DNA of 64,000 bases from Prevotella dentasini JCM 15908 (GTDB lineage: Bacteria > Bacteroidota > Bacteroidia > Bacteroidales > Bacteroidaceae), in NCBI RefSeq assembly GCF_000614065.1, contig NZ_BAKG01000005.1:82100-146099 (forward strand), read 5' to 3'. A model generated the notes under the pieces. That model worked only from the letters and a program-made list of their open reading frames with translations, made no database searches and was not told the origin of the DNA. Of the stretch, positions 21,976 to 30,332 are shown piece by piece. Both the position numbers and the translations under genes were made by a program. Each line of letters starts with the position of its first letter. Within the stretch, counting starts at the first letter, position 1.

Positions 21976-22202
21976 AGGATATAATATTCTTCTGAAAAAG
22001 ACACCATTGTTCTTCTGAAAAGCGATTGCCGGGTCAGGATAAAGGCAGCATGGTCTTGTATGAATGTGCGGCATCCTCTTTCCTCTTCCTGCGGCAGAAT
22101 TGCGCTGCAGGGCTGAGGGATTGCGGCAGCCGGATGGCCGCGGCCCGTGGCGTTCCGGGGATATTCCCTTTGCTTTTCCGTCCTTTTCTCCTTTTTTATT
22201 TA

Positions 22203-22210
22203 TATCTTTG
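22203..22210 (+). promoter_or_regulatory. -7 promoter box before the patatin gene
   Basis: TATCTTTG fits TAnnTTTG and is 82 bp before the ATG at 22293. No good -33 element is visible at the usual spacing. Confidence 0.5.
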
Positions 22211-22292
22211 CAGGCAGGAGGCGGATAGGCCGGCGCGGAAGGCTGCGCACGGGGAAGCTGCCCGAATCATCTCATTACCATACACCACTAAC

Positions 22293-24618
22293 ATGAAAGT
22301 AAGCACATTTAGGACGCGTCCCGGACGGGGGCTGCTGCAACAGATGCTTGTTGCCTTGTTTTTTCTGTCGTCGTACTCTTTGAACCTGTCTGCGCAGACG
22401 CCGGAGAGGAAGAAGGTGGCCGTCGTCCTCTGTGGCGGCGGAGCCAAGGGAGTGGCGCACATCGGTGTCCTGAAGGTTTTGGAAAAGGCCGGAATACCCA
22501 TCGACATGATTACGGGCACGTCGATGGGCAGCCTCGTAGGCGGACTCTATGCCATCGGATACGATGCCGGACAGCTCGACTCCATCGTGCAGATGCAGGA
22601 CTGGGGGATGCTGCTGTCGGACAAGGCGGACCTCACCCATCAGAGCATCGACGACCGGAGGAAGCAGAATACCTACATCATCTCGCGCGAGCTGTCGTTC
22701 CGCGGCAATTCCCTTGCCGAGACGGGCGGAATCATTCAGGGGAAGAATCTGTCGCTCCTCTTCGACAAGCTGACGGCAGGCTACCGCGACTCCGTGGATT
22801 TCAACCGGCTGCCCATTCCCTTTGCCTGCGTGGCGACGGACATTGTGGACAATTCGGAGGTGGTCTGGCACAGCGGCATCCTCGCGCAGGCCATGAGGTC
22901 GTCGATGTCCATCCCTGCCGCCTTCGCCCCGGTGCGCGTCGGCGACAGGGTGCTCGTCGACGGCGGACTGCGGAACAACTTCCCCGTCGACGTCGCCCGG
23001 CAGATGGGGGCCGACTACGTGATAGGCGTAACCCTGTCGGGCCGCGGACGCACGGCCGACGAACTGAGCAACGGAGCTTCGGTGCTGGGGCAGATAATAG
23101 ACGTCAACTGCAAGAACAAATACGACGAGAACATAGCCGCGACGGACATTCTGATACAGTGCAATACCGAGGGCTACAGTGCGGCGAGCTTCTTTCCGAG
23201 GGCGATAGACACCCTCATGGTGCGCGGCGAGCAGGAGGCGATGAAGCACTGGGACAAGCTGATGGCGCTGAAGCGTCTGCTCGGTCTGCCCGACGACTAT
23301 TCTCCCGTCGTGCGGCAGCCCGCCGGTCGCCGGTCTGCCCGGGGTGATGCGGCTGCGGAAGCTCGTCTTCGAGAATGTGGAGCCGGGAGACCGGCGGTTC
23401 TTGCAGAGAAAGTTCCGCCTGCCGTCCAAGAAGACGATAACGGCAGACGAGGTGGGGCAGATAGCGGCGGCGATGAGGGTCAGCCTCTTCTATTCCGATG
23501 CCGACAGCTACTACCTCCCCGTACCCGACTCTGCCGGACTTTACGACGTCCGCATCGTCGCCAAGGAGAAGAAGCGCAGTCAGATAAACCTCGGAGTACG
23601 GTTCGACAGCGAGGAGATAGTTACGTTGCAGGCCAACGGGGGCATCCAGTTCCACAGCCGGATGCCGATGAACGCGGAGCTGACGCTGCGCCTCGGAAAG
23701 CGCATCATGGCACGCGGCGACCTGAACATGACCCCGTGGACGTTCGGCCGTATGTCGTTCTCGTATGTTTTCCGCCACAACGACATCAACATCTACGAAC
23801 GGGCGAGCCGCCAGTCCAACGTTACCTACAATCAGCACACGCTGAACCTCAACCTCTTCGACTTCAATCTGCGTAACTTCAACTTCAAGATTGGTACGCG
23901 ATTCGATTACTACAACTACAACGCCCTCTTGGTCGGGGTACATTCCGAATACAGCAGCACGCCGCCAAGCGACCGCCACTACTTCGACTATCACGCCGAA
24001 ACCGACTATAACTCCGAGGACAAATGGTACTTTCCCTCGTCGGGCGCGTGCTTCAATGCTTCGTACCGGTACGTTACGAGCAACTACGTCAGCTATAACG
24101 GACATATAGGATTCTCTGTCGTAGGGGCTTCGTGGCGGATGAACTTCCCCCTGAACAAGCGGCTGACCTTCCAGCCCATGGTGTACGGAAGGCTGATAAT
24201 GGGACACCGCGGCGAGCAGGCGGAGGCAGCATCTTCGCCTGATGCTCCTGCCACAGGCTATCTCACCCCGTCTGCCCTCCGCAATTTCGTGGGAGGAGAC
24301 TGGTTCAATCATTATTTTGAGAATCAGCAGCTGCCTTTTGCCGGAATAGGATTCATAGAGGCGGTGAGCGACAAGTTCGTAGCCGTACAGCTCCGCCTGC
24401 AGCAGCGGATAACACAAAACAACTATCTGCTGCTTAAGTTCGCCACCTACGAGGACGGCCACGACTTCAGCAATCTGCTGGATCACGGCCCGAAGATTGG
24501 TGTGCAGGCGGCATGGTATTATAACGTCAGCTTCCTCGGCCCGGTCGGTGCAAGTATCGGCTACTCGTCGAGGACACACTCGCCCTATGCCTTCGTAAAC
24601 ATCGGCTACGAGTTCTGA
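22293..24618 (+). CDS. patatin-like phospholipase fused to an outer-membrane barrel (one frameshift)
   Basis: The start at 22293 gives a signal peptide (LLQQMLVALFFLSSYSLNLS). A patatin domain follows: CGGGAKGVAHIGVLKVLEKA (oxyanion glycines), GTSMGSLVGG (Ser nucleophile) and DGGLRNNFPVDVARQ (catalytic Asp). A POTRA-like linker (MRLRKLVFENVEPGDRRFLQ) and a 16-stranded-type barrel ending YAFVNIGYEF come next, matching the surface-antigen/BamA family. This patatin-POTRA-barrel order is that of type Vd autotransporters such as PlpD and FplA. The frame shifts near 23322 (one extra base or two missing); corrected length is about 774 residues. The lipase is likely delivered to the surface; the substrate is inferred to be phospholipid. 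Confidence 0.85.
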
Positions 24619-25701: not shown

Positions 25702-26584
25702 TTAGTCTATAAACCGGCGTGTGATGTCGGTGTACTTGTCTATGCGGCGGTCGCGCAGGAACGGCCACCATCGGCGTACCTGTTCGCTGTGGTGCAGGTC
25801 TATGCTGACGATGGTGCTTTCCTCGTCGTCGTCGCAGGCGCGGTAGAGCAGCTCGCCCTGCGGCCCGGCAACGAAACTGCTTCCCCAGAACTGTATGCCG
25901 TTGGTCTGGCCGCTCGGGTCTGGCTCGTGTCCGATGCGGTTGACGGCCACGACCGGCAGTCCGTTGGCGACGGCATGACCGCGCATGACGGTCGTCCACG
26001 CTTCGCGCTGCCGCTGCTGTTCGTCGCTGCTGTCGCTGCTCTCGTACCGATGGCAGTAGGATAGATGAGAATTTCTGCCCCCTGCAGGGCCATCAGCCGG
26101 GCAGCCTCGGGATACCACTGGTCCCAGCAGACAAGCACGCCGAGCCGTCCCACGCTCGTGTCGATGGGATGGAAGCCGAGGTCGCCGGGCGTAAAGTAGA
26201 ATTTCTCGTAGTAGGCCGGGTCGTCGGGAATGTGCATCTTGCGGTACTTTCCGGCTATGCTGCCGTCTTTCTCGAATACGACGGCCGTGTTATGGTAGAG
26301 TCCCGGAGCGCGACGCTCAAACAGCGAGGCGACGATGACAACCTTCAGCTCGCGTGCCAGTGCCCCATAGTGTCGGTAGACGGCCCGGGTACGGGTTCGG
26401 CAAGGTCGAAGTTGCCGACCTCCTCTACCTGACAGAAGTAGAGAGAGTTGTGAAGCTCTTGCAGTACGATGAGTTCTGCGCCCCGCTGTGCAAGGTCGGT
26501 GATGCCCTCGGTGAGCCGCTTGATGTTATTGGCAACGTCTGCCGTATTGTGCAGTTGCAGGAATCCTATTTTCAGTTCTTTCAT
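25702..26584 (-). CDS. aguB: N-carbamoylputrescine amidase (two frameshifts)
   Basis: Nitrilase-superfamily enzyme that hydrolyses N-carbamoylputrescine to putrescine, CO2 and ammonia. The start is MKELKIGFLQLHNTA at 26584. The catalytic triad is visible as the Glu in LIVLQELHNSLYF, the Lys in KYRKMHIPDDP and the Cys in VLVCWDQWYPEAARLMALQG. Single missing bases near 26371 (restoring STDTYGALARELKVV) and near 26047 (restoring YPTAIGYESSD) break the frame. Corrected length is 294 residues, the AguB norm. It follows aguA by 74 bp and precedes the acetyltransferase by 6 bp. The spacer 26585-26658 is a low-complexity CCCATCATC/ACAACA-type sequence. Confidence 0.92.
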
Positions 26585-26658
26585 TGTTGGGTGATGGTTG
26601 TTGGATGATGGGTGTGGATGAATGGGTGGACGGCGGGCCGGTGCCGTCGTCTCGTCGG

Positions 26659-27701
26659 TCAGGCGAGACAGCCTTTCGGCAGCTGCATGGTCAGGCAGTG
26701 GAGCGAGCCGTGCTGCCTGACGACGGTTGTAGCGTCTATTCCGATGATGTCCCGGTCGGGGAAGGCCTGCGCGATGGTGTCCATGGCGCGTTGGTCGTGC
26801 CCGGGTTGCCCGTAGGTCGGCACGATGACGGCCCCGTTGATGACGAGATAGTTGGCATAGGTAGCCGGAAGCCGGTCGCCGTCGTCGTAGATGGGCGACG
26901 GGATTGGGAGCTTCAGGCAGCGGTAGGGCTTCCCGTCGAGGGTGCGCAGGCCGTGTGCCTGCTTGTCGAGGGCGCACAGGTCGTCGTAGTGTGGGTCGGA
27001 AGGGTCGTCGCAGCTTATATATAATAAGGTGTCGTTGGGCGCGCACCGCATGATGGTATCTATGTGTCCGTCGGTGTCGTCGCCCTGCAGTTCGCCGTGG
27101 TCTATCCATACGACGCGTTCGAGATGGGGGAACAGCAGCAGCAGACGCTTTTCCAGTTCGTCCTTTCCGAGGGGTTGGTTGCGGTGGGGAGCCGTCAGGC
27201 AGGCGGTGGTGGTGAAGAGCGACCTTGCCCCGTCGCTCTCTATGGACCCTCCTTCGAGCACAAAGTCCTTGTGATTCTCCAAAGGAGCGTTGAAGGCTCC
27301 TGCCCTGTAGAGCTGTCGGTTGACGGCATTGTCCTTGTCGGCAGCGAACTTCTTGCCCCAGCCGTTGAAGCAGAAGTCCATCAGGTGGATTGGGGCGAAG
27401 ACGCCTGCCGCATCGTTTTCCGCCACGACGGCAACGGGCGCGACGTCCCGTGCCAAGTGTCGTTGTTGTCGCAGGCGTAAATCCGTATCCTGTCCATCTG
27501 GCCGGCGTCGAGCCGCCGTGCCATCAGCGACCGTACATGCCCGGGATTTCTTGCTGCAATCAGGAGCTTCTCGTATCGCGTAATGGCGTCTGCCATCTGC
27601 AGGTAGGTCTCGGTAATCTCTTCCAGATAGGGTTTCCAGTCGGTCTCCTCGTGTGGCCATATTATCATTACGCCACTCTGCTCCTCCCATTCGGCAGACA
27701 T
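26659..27701 (-). CDS. aguA: agmatine deiminase (one frameshift)
   Basis: Converts agmatine to N-carbamoylputrescine and ammonia, supplying AguB. It belongs to the peptidyl-arginine-deiminase-like family: MSAEWEEQSGVMIIWPHEET at the start, DNDTWARDVAPV, FCFNGWGKKF, VLEGGSIESDG, HIDTIMRCAPN and the C-terminal HGSLHCLTMQLP with the catalytic Cys. One missing base near 27453 breaks DTWARDVAPV; corrected, the protein has 347 residues, the normal length. The ATG at 27701 is chosen; an in-frame GTG at 27731 would add ten residues. It is the first gene of the aguA-aguB-acetyltransferase operon. Its promoter lies beside an array of CRP/FNR-like palindromes. Confidence 0.92.
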
Positions 27702-27802
27702 TCTGAATGTGTATGGATTGTTTCTGTTCACTTTCTTTTCCGTATAATAAGATGATAGCCGTCCATTCGCCGGTTTTCGGAGGCGGATGGCCGGTGTGTC
27801 TG

Positions 27803-27833
27803 CAAAGTTATGAAAAAAGATTGTTATTGGCAA
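27803..27833 (-). promoter_or_regulatory. promoter of the aguAB operon
   Basis: Minus strand: TTG (27831-27833), 20 bases, TAACTTTG (27803-27810). The aguA start is about 100 bp downstream. Confidence 0.75.
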
Positions 27834-27894
27834 TGAACGGTGGTCTTTTTACAGAGAAGACTCCAGAATAGGGTGGCAGCAGGTTCCGTGGGGC

Positions 27895-27994
27895 TTGATG
27901 CAGGTCAATCCGGGGGACGTACAGGCGTCAGGGAAGGCTTGACTTGTGTCAATCCGGAGTGTTGACGCAGGTCAAAATGCTTGATGGGAGTCAA
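27895..27994. promoter_or_regulatory. array of four TTGA-N6-TCAA palindromes (CRP/FNR-type operators)
   Basis: TTGATGCAGGTCAA (27895-27908), TTGACTTGTGTCAA (27939-27952), TTGACGCAGGTCAA (27962-27975) and TTGATGGGAGTCAA (27981-27994) share the 14-bp spacing and half-sites of FNR/DNR-type regulators. They lie between the aguA promoter and the divergent promoter at 28032-28063. The nearest is about 38 bp before that promoter's -33 box, a plausible activator position. Confidence 0.75.
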
Positions 27995-28031
27995 AAATAG
28001 GCGGATTTTCGGCTTATATCGGTGATTGAAT

Positions 28032-28063
28032 TTTGTGGCGAATAGGAAAAGATGCTAACTTTG
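28032..28063 (+). promoter_or_regulatory. consensus promoter TTTG-N20-TAACTTTG
   Basis: TTTG (28032-28035) and TAACTTTG (28056-28063) are separated by exactly 20 bases. Transcription would begin near 28070 and run to the terminator at 28443-28477, giving an RNA of about 410 nt. Confidence 0.8.
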
Positions 28064-28249
28064 CAAGCGTAAAACGAAGAGGAAATTTTCAGGATAACAA
28101 GCCGTCGCGACAAGGGCACGCCCCGTTCAGCAGGGTAGGAATAAGGCTCAATAAAGGCAGGGTCGGATAGTCAGGGCACCAGTCTCAATAGGACACACGA
28201 GTTTAGGTAAGAAGATTGTATAACAAAAGAACAAGAAAGGAACACTATT

Positions 28250-28354
28250 ATGAAGACGAGAATGACAAGAAAGGAGACAACCAAGAACATCCTCCGCTAT
28301 CTGGTCAATGTTCTTCGGATGTATAATGAAGGTCGCATGAATTGTCCGGCATAG
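28250..28354 (+). CDS. 34-codon small ORF inside a short regulated transcript
   Basis: Not recognised. The ATG at 28250 opens a 34-residue basic peptide (MKTRMTRKETTKNILRYLVN, ending RMNCPA) with a possible amphipathic centre ILRYLVNVLRMY. It is preceded by a strong promoter 190 bp upstream and followed by an intrinsic terminator 90 bp downstream, so it is the only plausible product of that transcript unless the RNA itself is the product. There is no signal peptide and no homologous neighbour. It could be a membrane-active small protein, a leader peptide without a following gene, or chance coding inside an sRNA. Confidence 0.45.
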   Translation: MKTRMTRKETTKNILRYLVNVLRMYNEGRMNCPA

Positions 28355-28442
28355 TCCGGGACAGCCGTCCGGAAGCAAGCAACGGTGCTTCGGGCGACAT
28401 TCAGACAGGAAAAGTATAGAATTTAGAGAGAATAAAAAAGGT

Positions 28443-28477
28443 ATCGGACCATAGCTTCTGGGCTTTGGTCCGATTTT
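28443..28477 (+). terminator. intrinsic terminator of the small transcript
   Basis: Stem 28443-28455 with 28462-28474 (outer eight pairs ATCGGACC/GGTCCGAT perfect, one inner mismatch) followed by TTTTC. Confidence 0.85.
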
Positions 28478-29109: not shown

Positions 29110-30332
29110 ATGGAAATAGCAGAGAGATTTATTAACTATACTAAGTTTGACACACAGTCGGCTGAAGATTCGCAGACTGTGCCAAGTACCCCCAAGCAGC
29201 TCATCTTCGCAAAATACCTGAAGGAAGAACTCGAGCGCGAGGAGCTGAAAGATGTAGAAATGGACGAGATGGGCTACATTTACGCCACTCTGCCGTCCAA
29301 TTCAAAGAAGAAAATTCCTACTATCGGATTCATTTCTCATTACGATACGGCACTTGATGCGAGCGGAGCTAACATCAAGGCACGCATTGTAAGGAACTAT
29401 GACGGGGGAGACATACAGCTCAATCCCAATATGGTATCGTCTCCGGCGATGTTCCCCGAACTGCTGGAGCATAAGGGCGAAGACCTCATCGTTACCGACG
29501 GTACGACCCTGTTGGGCGCAGACGACAAGGCAGGCATTGCCGAAATAGTGCAGGCTATGTGCTATCTGCGCGACCATCCCGAAATAGAGCACGGCGATAT
29601 ACGCGTAGGTTTCAATCCCGATGAGGAGATTGGAATGGGTGCCCACCACTTCGACGTAGAGAAGTTTGGCTGCGACTGGGGCTACACCATTGACGGCGGC
29701 GACCTCGGCGAACTGGAATACGAGAACTTCAATGCCGCAGGGGCAAAGGTGTTCATTCATGGCGTCAGCGTCCATACGGGCTACGCAAAGGGCAAGATGG
29801 TCAACGCAAGCCGTCTGGCATGTGAGTTCAATGCCATGATTCCCGATACCGAGATTCCCGAAGCTACCGAAGGATATCAGGCTTCTACCATCTGCTCGGG
29901 ATAGACAGCCGCTGCGAGGAGGCCAAGCTGAGCTATATCATCCGCGACCACGACCGCGACCGCTTCGAAGACCGCAAGCGGTTCATGCAGAACTGCGTCA
30001 GCCAGATGAACGAGAAGTATGGCGAGGGTACCGTAGAACTGAAGATGAACGACCAGTACTACAACATGAAGGAGAAGATAGACCCGAACATGCACGTCAT
30101 AGAGCTTGTGCTGAAGGCCATGCAGCAGTGTGCCATTGCCCCGAAGGTACAGCCTATCCGCGGCGGTACGGACGGCGCGCAGCTCTCTTTCAAGGGTCTG
30201 CCCTGTCCGAACATCTTTGCCGGTGGTGTCAACTTCCACGGCCCGTATGAGTTTGTGTCCATTCAGGTGATGGAAAAGGCCATGCAGGTCATCATAAACA
30301 TTTGTCAGCTGACGGCGGAGTTTAACGATTGA
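29110..30332 (+). CDS. pepT: peptidase T, tripeptide aminopeptidase (one frameshift)
   Basis: Cytoplasmic dizinc M20 aminopeptidase that removes the N-terminal residue from tripeptides. Metal-site motifs are visible: [15 protein letters not shown] (His and Asp), [14 protein letters not shown] (bridging Asp), [14 protein letters not shown] (general-base Glu and metal Glu), YTIDGG, and [20 protein letters not shown] near the end with the last ligand His in [11 protein letters not shown]. One missing G near 29880 breaks [12 protein letters not shown]; corrected length is 407 residues, the PepT norm. A strong terminator follows directly, so it is probably monocistronic. Confidence 0.93.

Follow-up and report, generated by a model that had tools for sequence, protein, structure and literature searches.

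A row of FNR-type operators precedes a conserved 34-residue protein gene in Prevotella, with a lepA-adjacent Crp-family protein as candidate regulator

Organization of the locus

The window analyzed here is a 64,000-nucleotide stretch of Prevotella dentasini JCM 15908 (G000:C37:82100-146099), from a genome of 2.55 Mb that is 86% complete. Four TTGA-N6-TCAA palindromes lie on its forward strand, namely operator 4 (TTGATGCAGGTCAA, 27895..27908), operator 3 (TTGACTTGTGTCAA, 27939..27952), operator 2 (TTGACGCAGGTCAA, 27962..27975) and operator 1 (TTGATGGGAGTCAA, 27981..27994), centered 154.5, 110.5, 87.5 and 68.5 bp, respectively, before the TA of TAACTTTG. They are followed on the same strand by a Bacteroidetes -33/-7 promoter, TTTG-N20-TAACTTTG (28032..28063), which has the form of a Bacteroidetes primary-sigma promoter (TTTG and TAnnTTTG, about 20 bp between), so placed that transcription would start a few bases 3' of the -7 element. 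Downstream, also on the forward strand, are a leader of 186 nt counted from the -7 element (28064..28249), the gene for a 34-residue protein (MKTRMTRKETTKNILRYLVNVLRMYNEGRMNCPA, 28250..28354, stop TAG) and an intrinsic terminator (28444..28477), formed by the hairpin TCGGACCA..TGGTCCGA and then TTTT (-19.9 kcal/mol for a 39-nt stretch containing the hairpin).

The preliminary description of this DNA had reported the four palindromes, the promoter, the 34-codon ORF and the terminator, and all were found at the positions it gave. Its statement that this ORF was the only one did not hold, since other short ORFs overlap the interval (for example, 36 aa from TTG); among these, the 34-codon ORF is the conserved one. 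Several genes of the window did not read in a single frame: aguA (26659-27833, reverse strand), aguB (25800-27109, reverse), pepT (29110-30332, forward) and a patatin/Omp85 gene (22026-24618, forward) were each in at least two frames, as if from assembly frame errors or broken genes.

Conservation of the 34-residue protein

A search with the 34 residues as a single sequence matched 12 of 60 genomes at E<=1, comprising the window's own protein, six convincing matches of the same genus and five that looked like chance. The weak matches (L012-L019) were left out after a site scan of all of them and inspection of L013, L015 and L019. With a profile, 42 of 200 genus genomes matched at E<=0.001 and 57 of 200 at E<=0.1, the extra matches between the two thresholds being likely chance; the majority of the genus genomes searched in this way (n=200) gave no peptide match. 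At the family level, the peptide was present in 6 of 151 genomes, all six among the 10 genomes of the genus. Named or MAG records held 32 of the peptide loci, and the hosts included Prevotella veroralis, P. lacticifex, P. conceptionensis and P. koreensis, Hoylesella saccharolytica, H. loescheii, H. marshii, H. shahii and H. pleuritidis, as well as Xylanibacter rarus, X. muris and Marseilla massiliensis. After removal of loci with identical coding and 60-nt upstream sequence, 48 of 62 loci were retained; clades were unevenly sampled, and the 48 loci are therefore not independent.

In a 26-row alignment, Y25, G28 and R29 were invariant, and M1, Y17, N20 and N26 were nearly so. The dN/dS of the peptide was 0.097 (557 pairs, 48 distinct loci of the genus), and the substitutions in these 557 pairs were distributed over the three codon positions as 2874:2429:8034. 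The peptide is under purifying selection, and the ORF is a real small-protein gene. Where the preliminary description had offered a small protein or an sRNA, the low dN/dS and the third-position excess support the former and speak against an sRNA alone. A terminator-like hairpin was found at most 260 nt downstream in 45 of the 48 loci in a scan run without a control.

None of the 26 members scanned matched a curated NCBIfam family at E 0.05, and Pfam gave marginal matches only, to three unlike families, each seen in one or two of the members (the best at E 0.016). The AlphaFold2 model is a single helix spanning residues 2-30 (mean pLDDT 78), and the protein is basic, with a net charge of +4 to +8. 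An amphipathic helix was rejected, the hydrophobic moment not exceeding that of shuffles in the four members tested; a phage origin was likewise rejected, as no match was obtained in the phage collection.

Operator array in fixed slots

The exact TTGA-N6-TCAA pattern occurred 5 times in the 64-kb window against 1.57 expected, a count reached in 4 of 100 dinucleotide shuffles and, taken alone, weak as evidence. Four palindromes within 100 bp were obtained in none of 300 mononucleotide shuffles, in which the largest cluster was 1. Genome-wide, the bare 14-mer was hardly enriched (45 matches vs 38 in the backward control), so single copies mean little unless they are placed at a promoter.

Across the 48 loci, two to five exact copies were present in 41 (one site in 7 loci, two in 30, three in 6, four in 4 and five in 1). 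Prevotella veroralis DSM 19559 supplied a four-site locus, L229. The main slots lay about 68, 87, 110, 133 and 154 bp before TAnnTTTG. Measured in bp before the TA, the exact sites of the 48 loci numbered 41 at 67.5/68.5, 42 at 86.5/87.5, 5 at 98.5, 11 at 109.5/110.5, 5 at 131.5-133.5 and 2 at 153.5/154.5; the last slot (153.5-154.5), that of operator 4 in the window, was also occupied in L102. The two sites nearest the promoter were spaced 19 bp apart in most loci and the next ones 22-23 bp apart. These results demonstrate that the sites of the array are held in fixed slots upstream of the -33/-7 promoter. Array and peptide were both kept when conservation was checked in relatives, and the earlier reading of a short transcript under heavy regulation was borne out.

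The same site at other promoters

The slot of operator 1 is common to single-site promoters of the genus. We defined a composite pattern as the site, 56-62 bp and TAnnTTTG. It was found in 24 of 24 genus genomes, with 166 matches vs 1 in the backward control, while 16 genomes of other families gave 5 matches vs 3 (all counts hand-summed). When gaps of 45-75 were allowed in 15 genomes, 157 matches were obtained vs 5 in the backward control; among the 150 of these 157 matches that were listed, the gap was 59-61 in 114, 70-71 in 18, 63-64 in 11 and elsewhere in 7.

Other promoters with a site in the 68-bp slot carried it as a single copy in 105 of 107 cases. Composite promoters fetched by pattern from the genus and from other genera had a single exact site in 67 of 68 cases, the sole exception being a locus of the 34-residue peptide. 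A further 40 composite promoters were taken from six near-complete genomes (the listed promoters with gap 59-61 of G024, G085, G100, G146, G156 and G161, peptide genes excluded); 38 had a single site and 2 had two sites, both of the latter reflecting a single pair of sites that two divergent promoters of G156 share. Among the promoters examined, a row of more than two exact sites was therefore seen at the 34-residue gene only.

Transcripts behind the site

We sorted 55 non-peptide promoters from eight near-complete genomes (G024, G085, G100, G146, G156, G161, G010 and G016) by their downstream transcripts, by eye outside Rfam and on a sequence basis. A class was assigned to 45 of the 55: 12 preceded FopS (one below the family cut-off), 15 preceded RNAs with a common AGATTGTTTAGGTT leader, 11 preceded peptides of 25-39 aa, of which several look as if they span the membrane, and 7 preceded proteins of at least 100 aa (secreted-looking, two Lys/Ala-rich, one aldolase-like). 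FopS also lay behind 9 of the 40 further composite promoters. Viewed from the FopS genes, an exact site occupied the 68-bp slot at 11 of 30 loci, 5 of these 30 loci being from outside the genus. Of 20 composite loci from other genera, 17 were scanned with Rfam, which gave one cobalamin riboswitch only and no FopS.

Seven loci with a gap of 68-71 were fetched, and 16S rRNA lay behind three of them (L180, L181 and L185), these being both operons fetched from G156 and one from G026, with the site one helical turn further away (gap 70). The other four (L182, L183, L184 and L186) showed no rRNA within the fetched stretch. The sites with an rRNA-type gap in the P. dentasini genome lie at contig ends, and rRNA may be next to them.

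Several groups were observed behind the site. Short transcripts with a common AATAGATTGTTTAGGTT, most with AGTAGTAATAGATTTAGGTTTTTAGTTATT and several with a ACCGTGAGGT hairpin, occurred behind a single site at L021, L026, L033, L161, L163-L165, L169, L170, L172, L177 and L179, and at 8 more loci by word match; the three P. dentasini copies scanned had no Rfam match, and these transcripts are a candidate new sRNA family. Membrane-spanning-looking peptides of 25-31 aa, such as MVTLVGILITVAAVVAEILIVSRKINLD, stood behind the site at L162, L167, L176, L035, L264, L265, L269, L277, L287, L295 and L300. L271, L298 and L023 encode Lys/Ala-rich proteins of 95-102 aa that start with MAEKK and are perhaps nucleoid or histone-like. 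Peptides of 39 aa were present behind single sites at L171 (MKNLTMKMKSVIIKIVKTYKDSMSCYGEGMLNGRGYTCA) and L269 (MKKIVESIRKVIKKIIRGYIIGMKQYGEALLRGGSYGCA), possibly distant counterparts of the 34-residue protein.

A candidate regulator of the Crp family

We searched eleven genomes for cNMP-binding proteins and aligned all 30 proteins found. One set, group A, was present in all eight genus genomes and ended in LVYIASYLQMTPETLSRVR or nearly so; the P. dentasini member (G000:C22:4814-5068) lies outside the window. The Crp/Fnr sensor domain PF00027 was detected in this protein (E 1.7e-13, over the cut-off) and in 120 homologues among the matches listed. All 8 group A proteins had the FNR-type reading residues E-x-x-S-R (Glu/Ser/Arg, aligned with FNR), and none of the other 22 did. 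An FNR-like recognition rule (Glu 181, Ser or Pro but not Arg at 180, and Arg 185) was likewise followed by all eight, which read PETLSR. In the accessible text of PMC1274295, Ser or Pro at 180 together with Glu at 181 goes with TTGACnnnnGTCAA, and the Pro 180 and Glu 181 of group A agree with this published rule. The FNR-type character of the half-site, as read earlier, was supported. The modelled helices span residues 173-180 and 185-196 with no wing, at low confidence (block pLDDT 53-63); the helix-turn-helix stops after the recognition helix, and it gave no PF13545 match.

The composite pattern was found in 83 of 89 family genomes with a strong group A match (E<=1e-40) vs 13 of 62 without (151 genomes), figures that are inflated by the shared ancestry of the genomes. 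Eight of these 13 belong to one genus, and 6 of the 8 have a weak match; 6 genomes have a strong match and no composite. Genus g54 was represented by eight genomes; the site occurred in two of them, precisely those that carry the regulator. As a control, HTH_Crp_2 proteins were present in 146 of the 151 family genomes. The regulator gene lies after lepA, the two being neighbors in 18 of 19 loci, and an exact TTGAY-N4-RTCAA was absent from the 19 regulator-gene stretches. Because of its reading residues and its co-occurrence with the sites, the group A protein is the candidate regulator, and it is predicted to bind the array.

The first Cys of the P. dentasini group A protein is residue 52. In FNR, the cysteines of the cluster start near the N-terminus. 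Such FNR-type N-terminal cluster cysteines are absent from the P. dentasini protein. The suggestion in the preliminary description that oxygen or NO is sensed here is not supported, in view of this position of the first Cys and of the published Bacteroides HcpR2 motif, which is GTAACnnnnGTTAC and not TTGA.

Proposed mechanism and alternatives

We propose, with a probability of about 0.7 and on sequence grounds, that the operator row before the conserved 34-residue gene is bound by the lepA-adjacent Crp-family regulator, which is predicted to bind there and likely activates the gene. The same protein likely binds at many promoters of small-RNA and miniprotein genes as well. Dimers of the regulator would line the row. 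The one closest to the promoter would sit about 68 bp before the -7 element, where the site of the single-site promoters lies too, and the bound regulator would recruit RNA polymerase from an upstream position, as class I activators do. Extra dimers would add sensitivity or strength, and stacking two to five of them may make this gene the most sensitive or the strongest of the set. The basic single-helix protein might in turn act on RNA, ribosomes or the regulator itself; action on RNA or ribosomes is guessed from its charge and company, and feedback from the long operator row. In a wider version, which we consider possible but doubtful, the lepA-adjacent regulator would govern a regulon mainly of short transcripts (FopS, other sRNAs and proteins of 25-39 residues), with rRNA operons in some species, and the 34-residue protein would be its hub output, with the longest row (up to five) and feeding back on the regulator or ribosomes.

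It is unlikely that a different Crp/Fnr protein, of HcpR, DNR or PgRsp type, binds the array in a nitrosative or redox response. According to the accessible text of PMC1274295, the HcpR motif of delta-proteobacteria and cyanobacteria is TTGACnnnnGTCAA and the DNR motif is TTGATnnnnATCAA, both of which would suit such a protein, and other Crp-family proteins are present in these genomes. However, the Bacteroides HcpR2 motif in the same source is GTAACnnnnGTTAC, Glu at the reading position is missing from all 22 of the remaining Crp-family proteins, and the assigned downstream transcripts are not a redox set. On the motif and the assigned targets, control by HcpR or DNR in response to oxygen, NO or heme is not supported.

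A transcript that is mainly a regulatory RNA, with the peptide secondary as in a dual-function sRNA, seems quite unlikely to us, even though sRNAs (FopS) and leader-family RNAs belong to the set. The length of the leader ranged from 42 to 229 nt across the 48 loci, so conservation does not extend to the entire RNA, and selection acts on codons (dN/dS 0.097); on these two grounds, a purely sRNA reading was rejected. In addition, Rfam gave no match at the gathering score in the window. A small hairpin, GGATGTGAAGATGCATCC, recurs in the 5' leader of 27 of the 48 peptide loci (e.g., L227, L236 and L113), usually with a GAAG loop and with changes that keep the pairing (GG/CC, CG/CG and GAGTG/CACTC; pairing judged by eye), which favors an RNA function; it is, however, absent from the window.

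We regard it as very unlikely that the array controls aguA, and with it polyamine synthesis, whether together with the small gene or in its place. The aguA gene is the divergent neighbor in 29 of the 48 loci, and the preliminary description had suggested that it shares the control. In none of these 29 loci was a site placed 66-69 bp from an aguA-facing TAnnTTTG, 8 of the 29 having no such element. The other distances between a site and the aguA-facing element scattered from 61.5 to 168.5 bp; two were 78.5 bp, a slot used at other promoters. Among the 48 loci, 19 gave no aguA match in the flank that was fetched, a few of these lying on short contigs, and there the array and the peptide gene still occur together. 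Finally, a decoy array that soaks up the regulator and tunes its other promoters, with the peptide as a minor product, would fit the finding that, of all promoters examined, those of this gene alone have a row of more than two exact sites, but is highly improbable given that two to five sites are a small number for titration, that they are locked in register with the promoter and that the peptide is conserved.

Relation to known systems

Regulation by the lepA-adjacent Crp-family protein would resemble several known systems. HcpR1 of delta-proteobacteria, DNR and FNR have the same kind of palindrome, TTGAC/T-N4-G/ATCAA, upstream of promoters, as described in the accessible text of PMC1274295, whereas the HcpR2 regulon of Bacteroides uses GTAACnnnnGTTAC and the sites here are TTGAY-N4-RTCAA. 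FNR has the Glu and Arg reading residues seen in group A; it differs in its N-terminal cysteines, which the candidate lacks. FNR-type regulons target redox enzymes, whereas the assigned targets here are mostly sRNAs and miniproteins, with rRNA in two species.

The Bacteroides master regulator Cur (BT4338) belongs to the Crp family, as does the candidate, and activates the sRNA MasB in B. thetaiotaomicron according to the accessible part of PMC10994844. The Cur motif given in the available portions of PMC6989115 and PMC3878776 is TATGTTnTAnAACATA, which was not seen on reading 27880-28070; Cur was rejected as the regulator of the array, its motif being this and not TTGA-N6-TCAA. SnoA of B. thetaiotaomicron, as far as the accessible text of a preprint goes (PMC13370916), is, like the transcript here, a short Bacteroidales transcript linked to a Crp/Fnr-type regulator, but it lies downstream of hcpR in antisense orientation to the hcp promoter, whereas the present locus adjoins aguA and encodes a conserved protein.

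In the FopS family (RF04319), some genes of the genus have an identical site in the identical slot (11 of 30 loci); FopS is a non-coding RNA, whereas the present gene is protein-coding and has a tandem array. According to the accessible text of PMC11697453, an unknown regulator possibly enhances the transcription of FopS, and group A is a candidate for it; the link would concern part of the FopS genes and this genus only.

Crp-family regulons with a TTGA motif are already known. The literature searched held no account of the 34-residue gene or of a group A regulon, and a tandem operator row before a miniprotein gene atop such a set is, as far as we have seen, new. Regulation has been little mapped in Prevotella, a major genus of the gut, mouth and rumen; for a set of its sRNA and miniprotein promoters, the analysis yields a motif, a spacing rule and a candidate regulator. 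A conserved small protein with neither a Pfam nor an NCBIfam family sits at the most elaborated promoter of the set.

Two further features were observed among the composite promoters listed. An additional palindrome, TGTTTGCGCAAACA or TTGTGTGCGCACACAA, frequently overlaps the -33 region, and in genus g27 a Cur-like TATGTTATAAAACATA stands in place of this -33-overlapping palindrome at several composite promoters.
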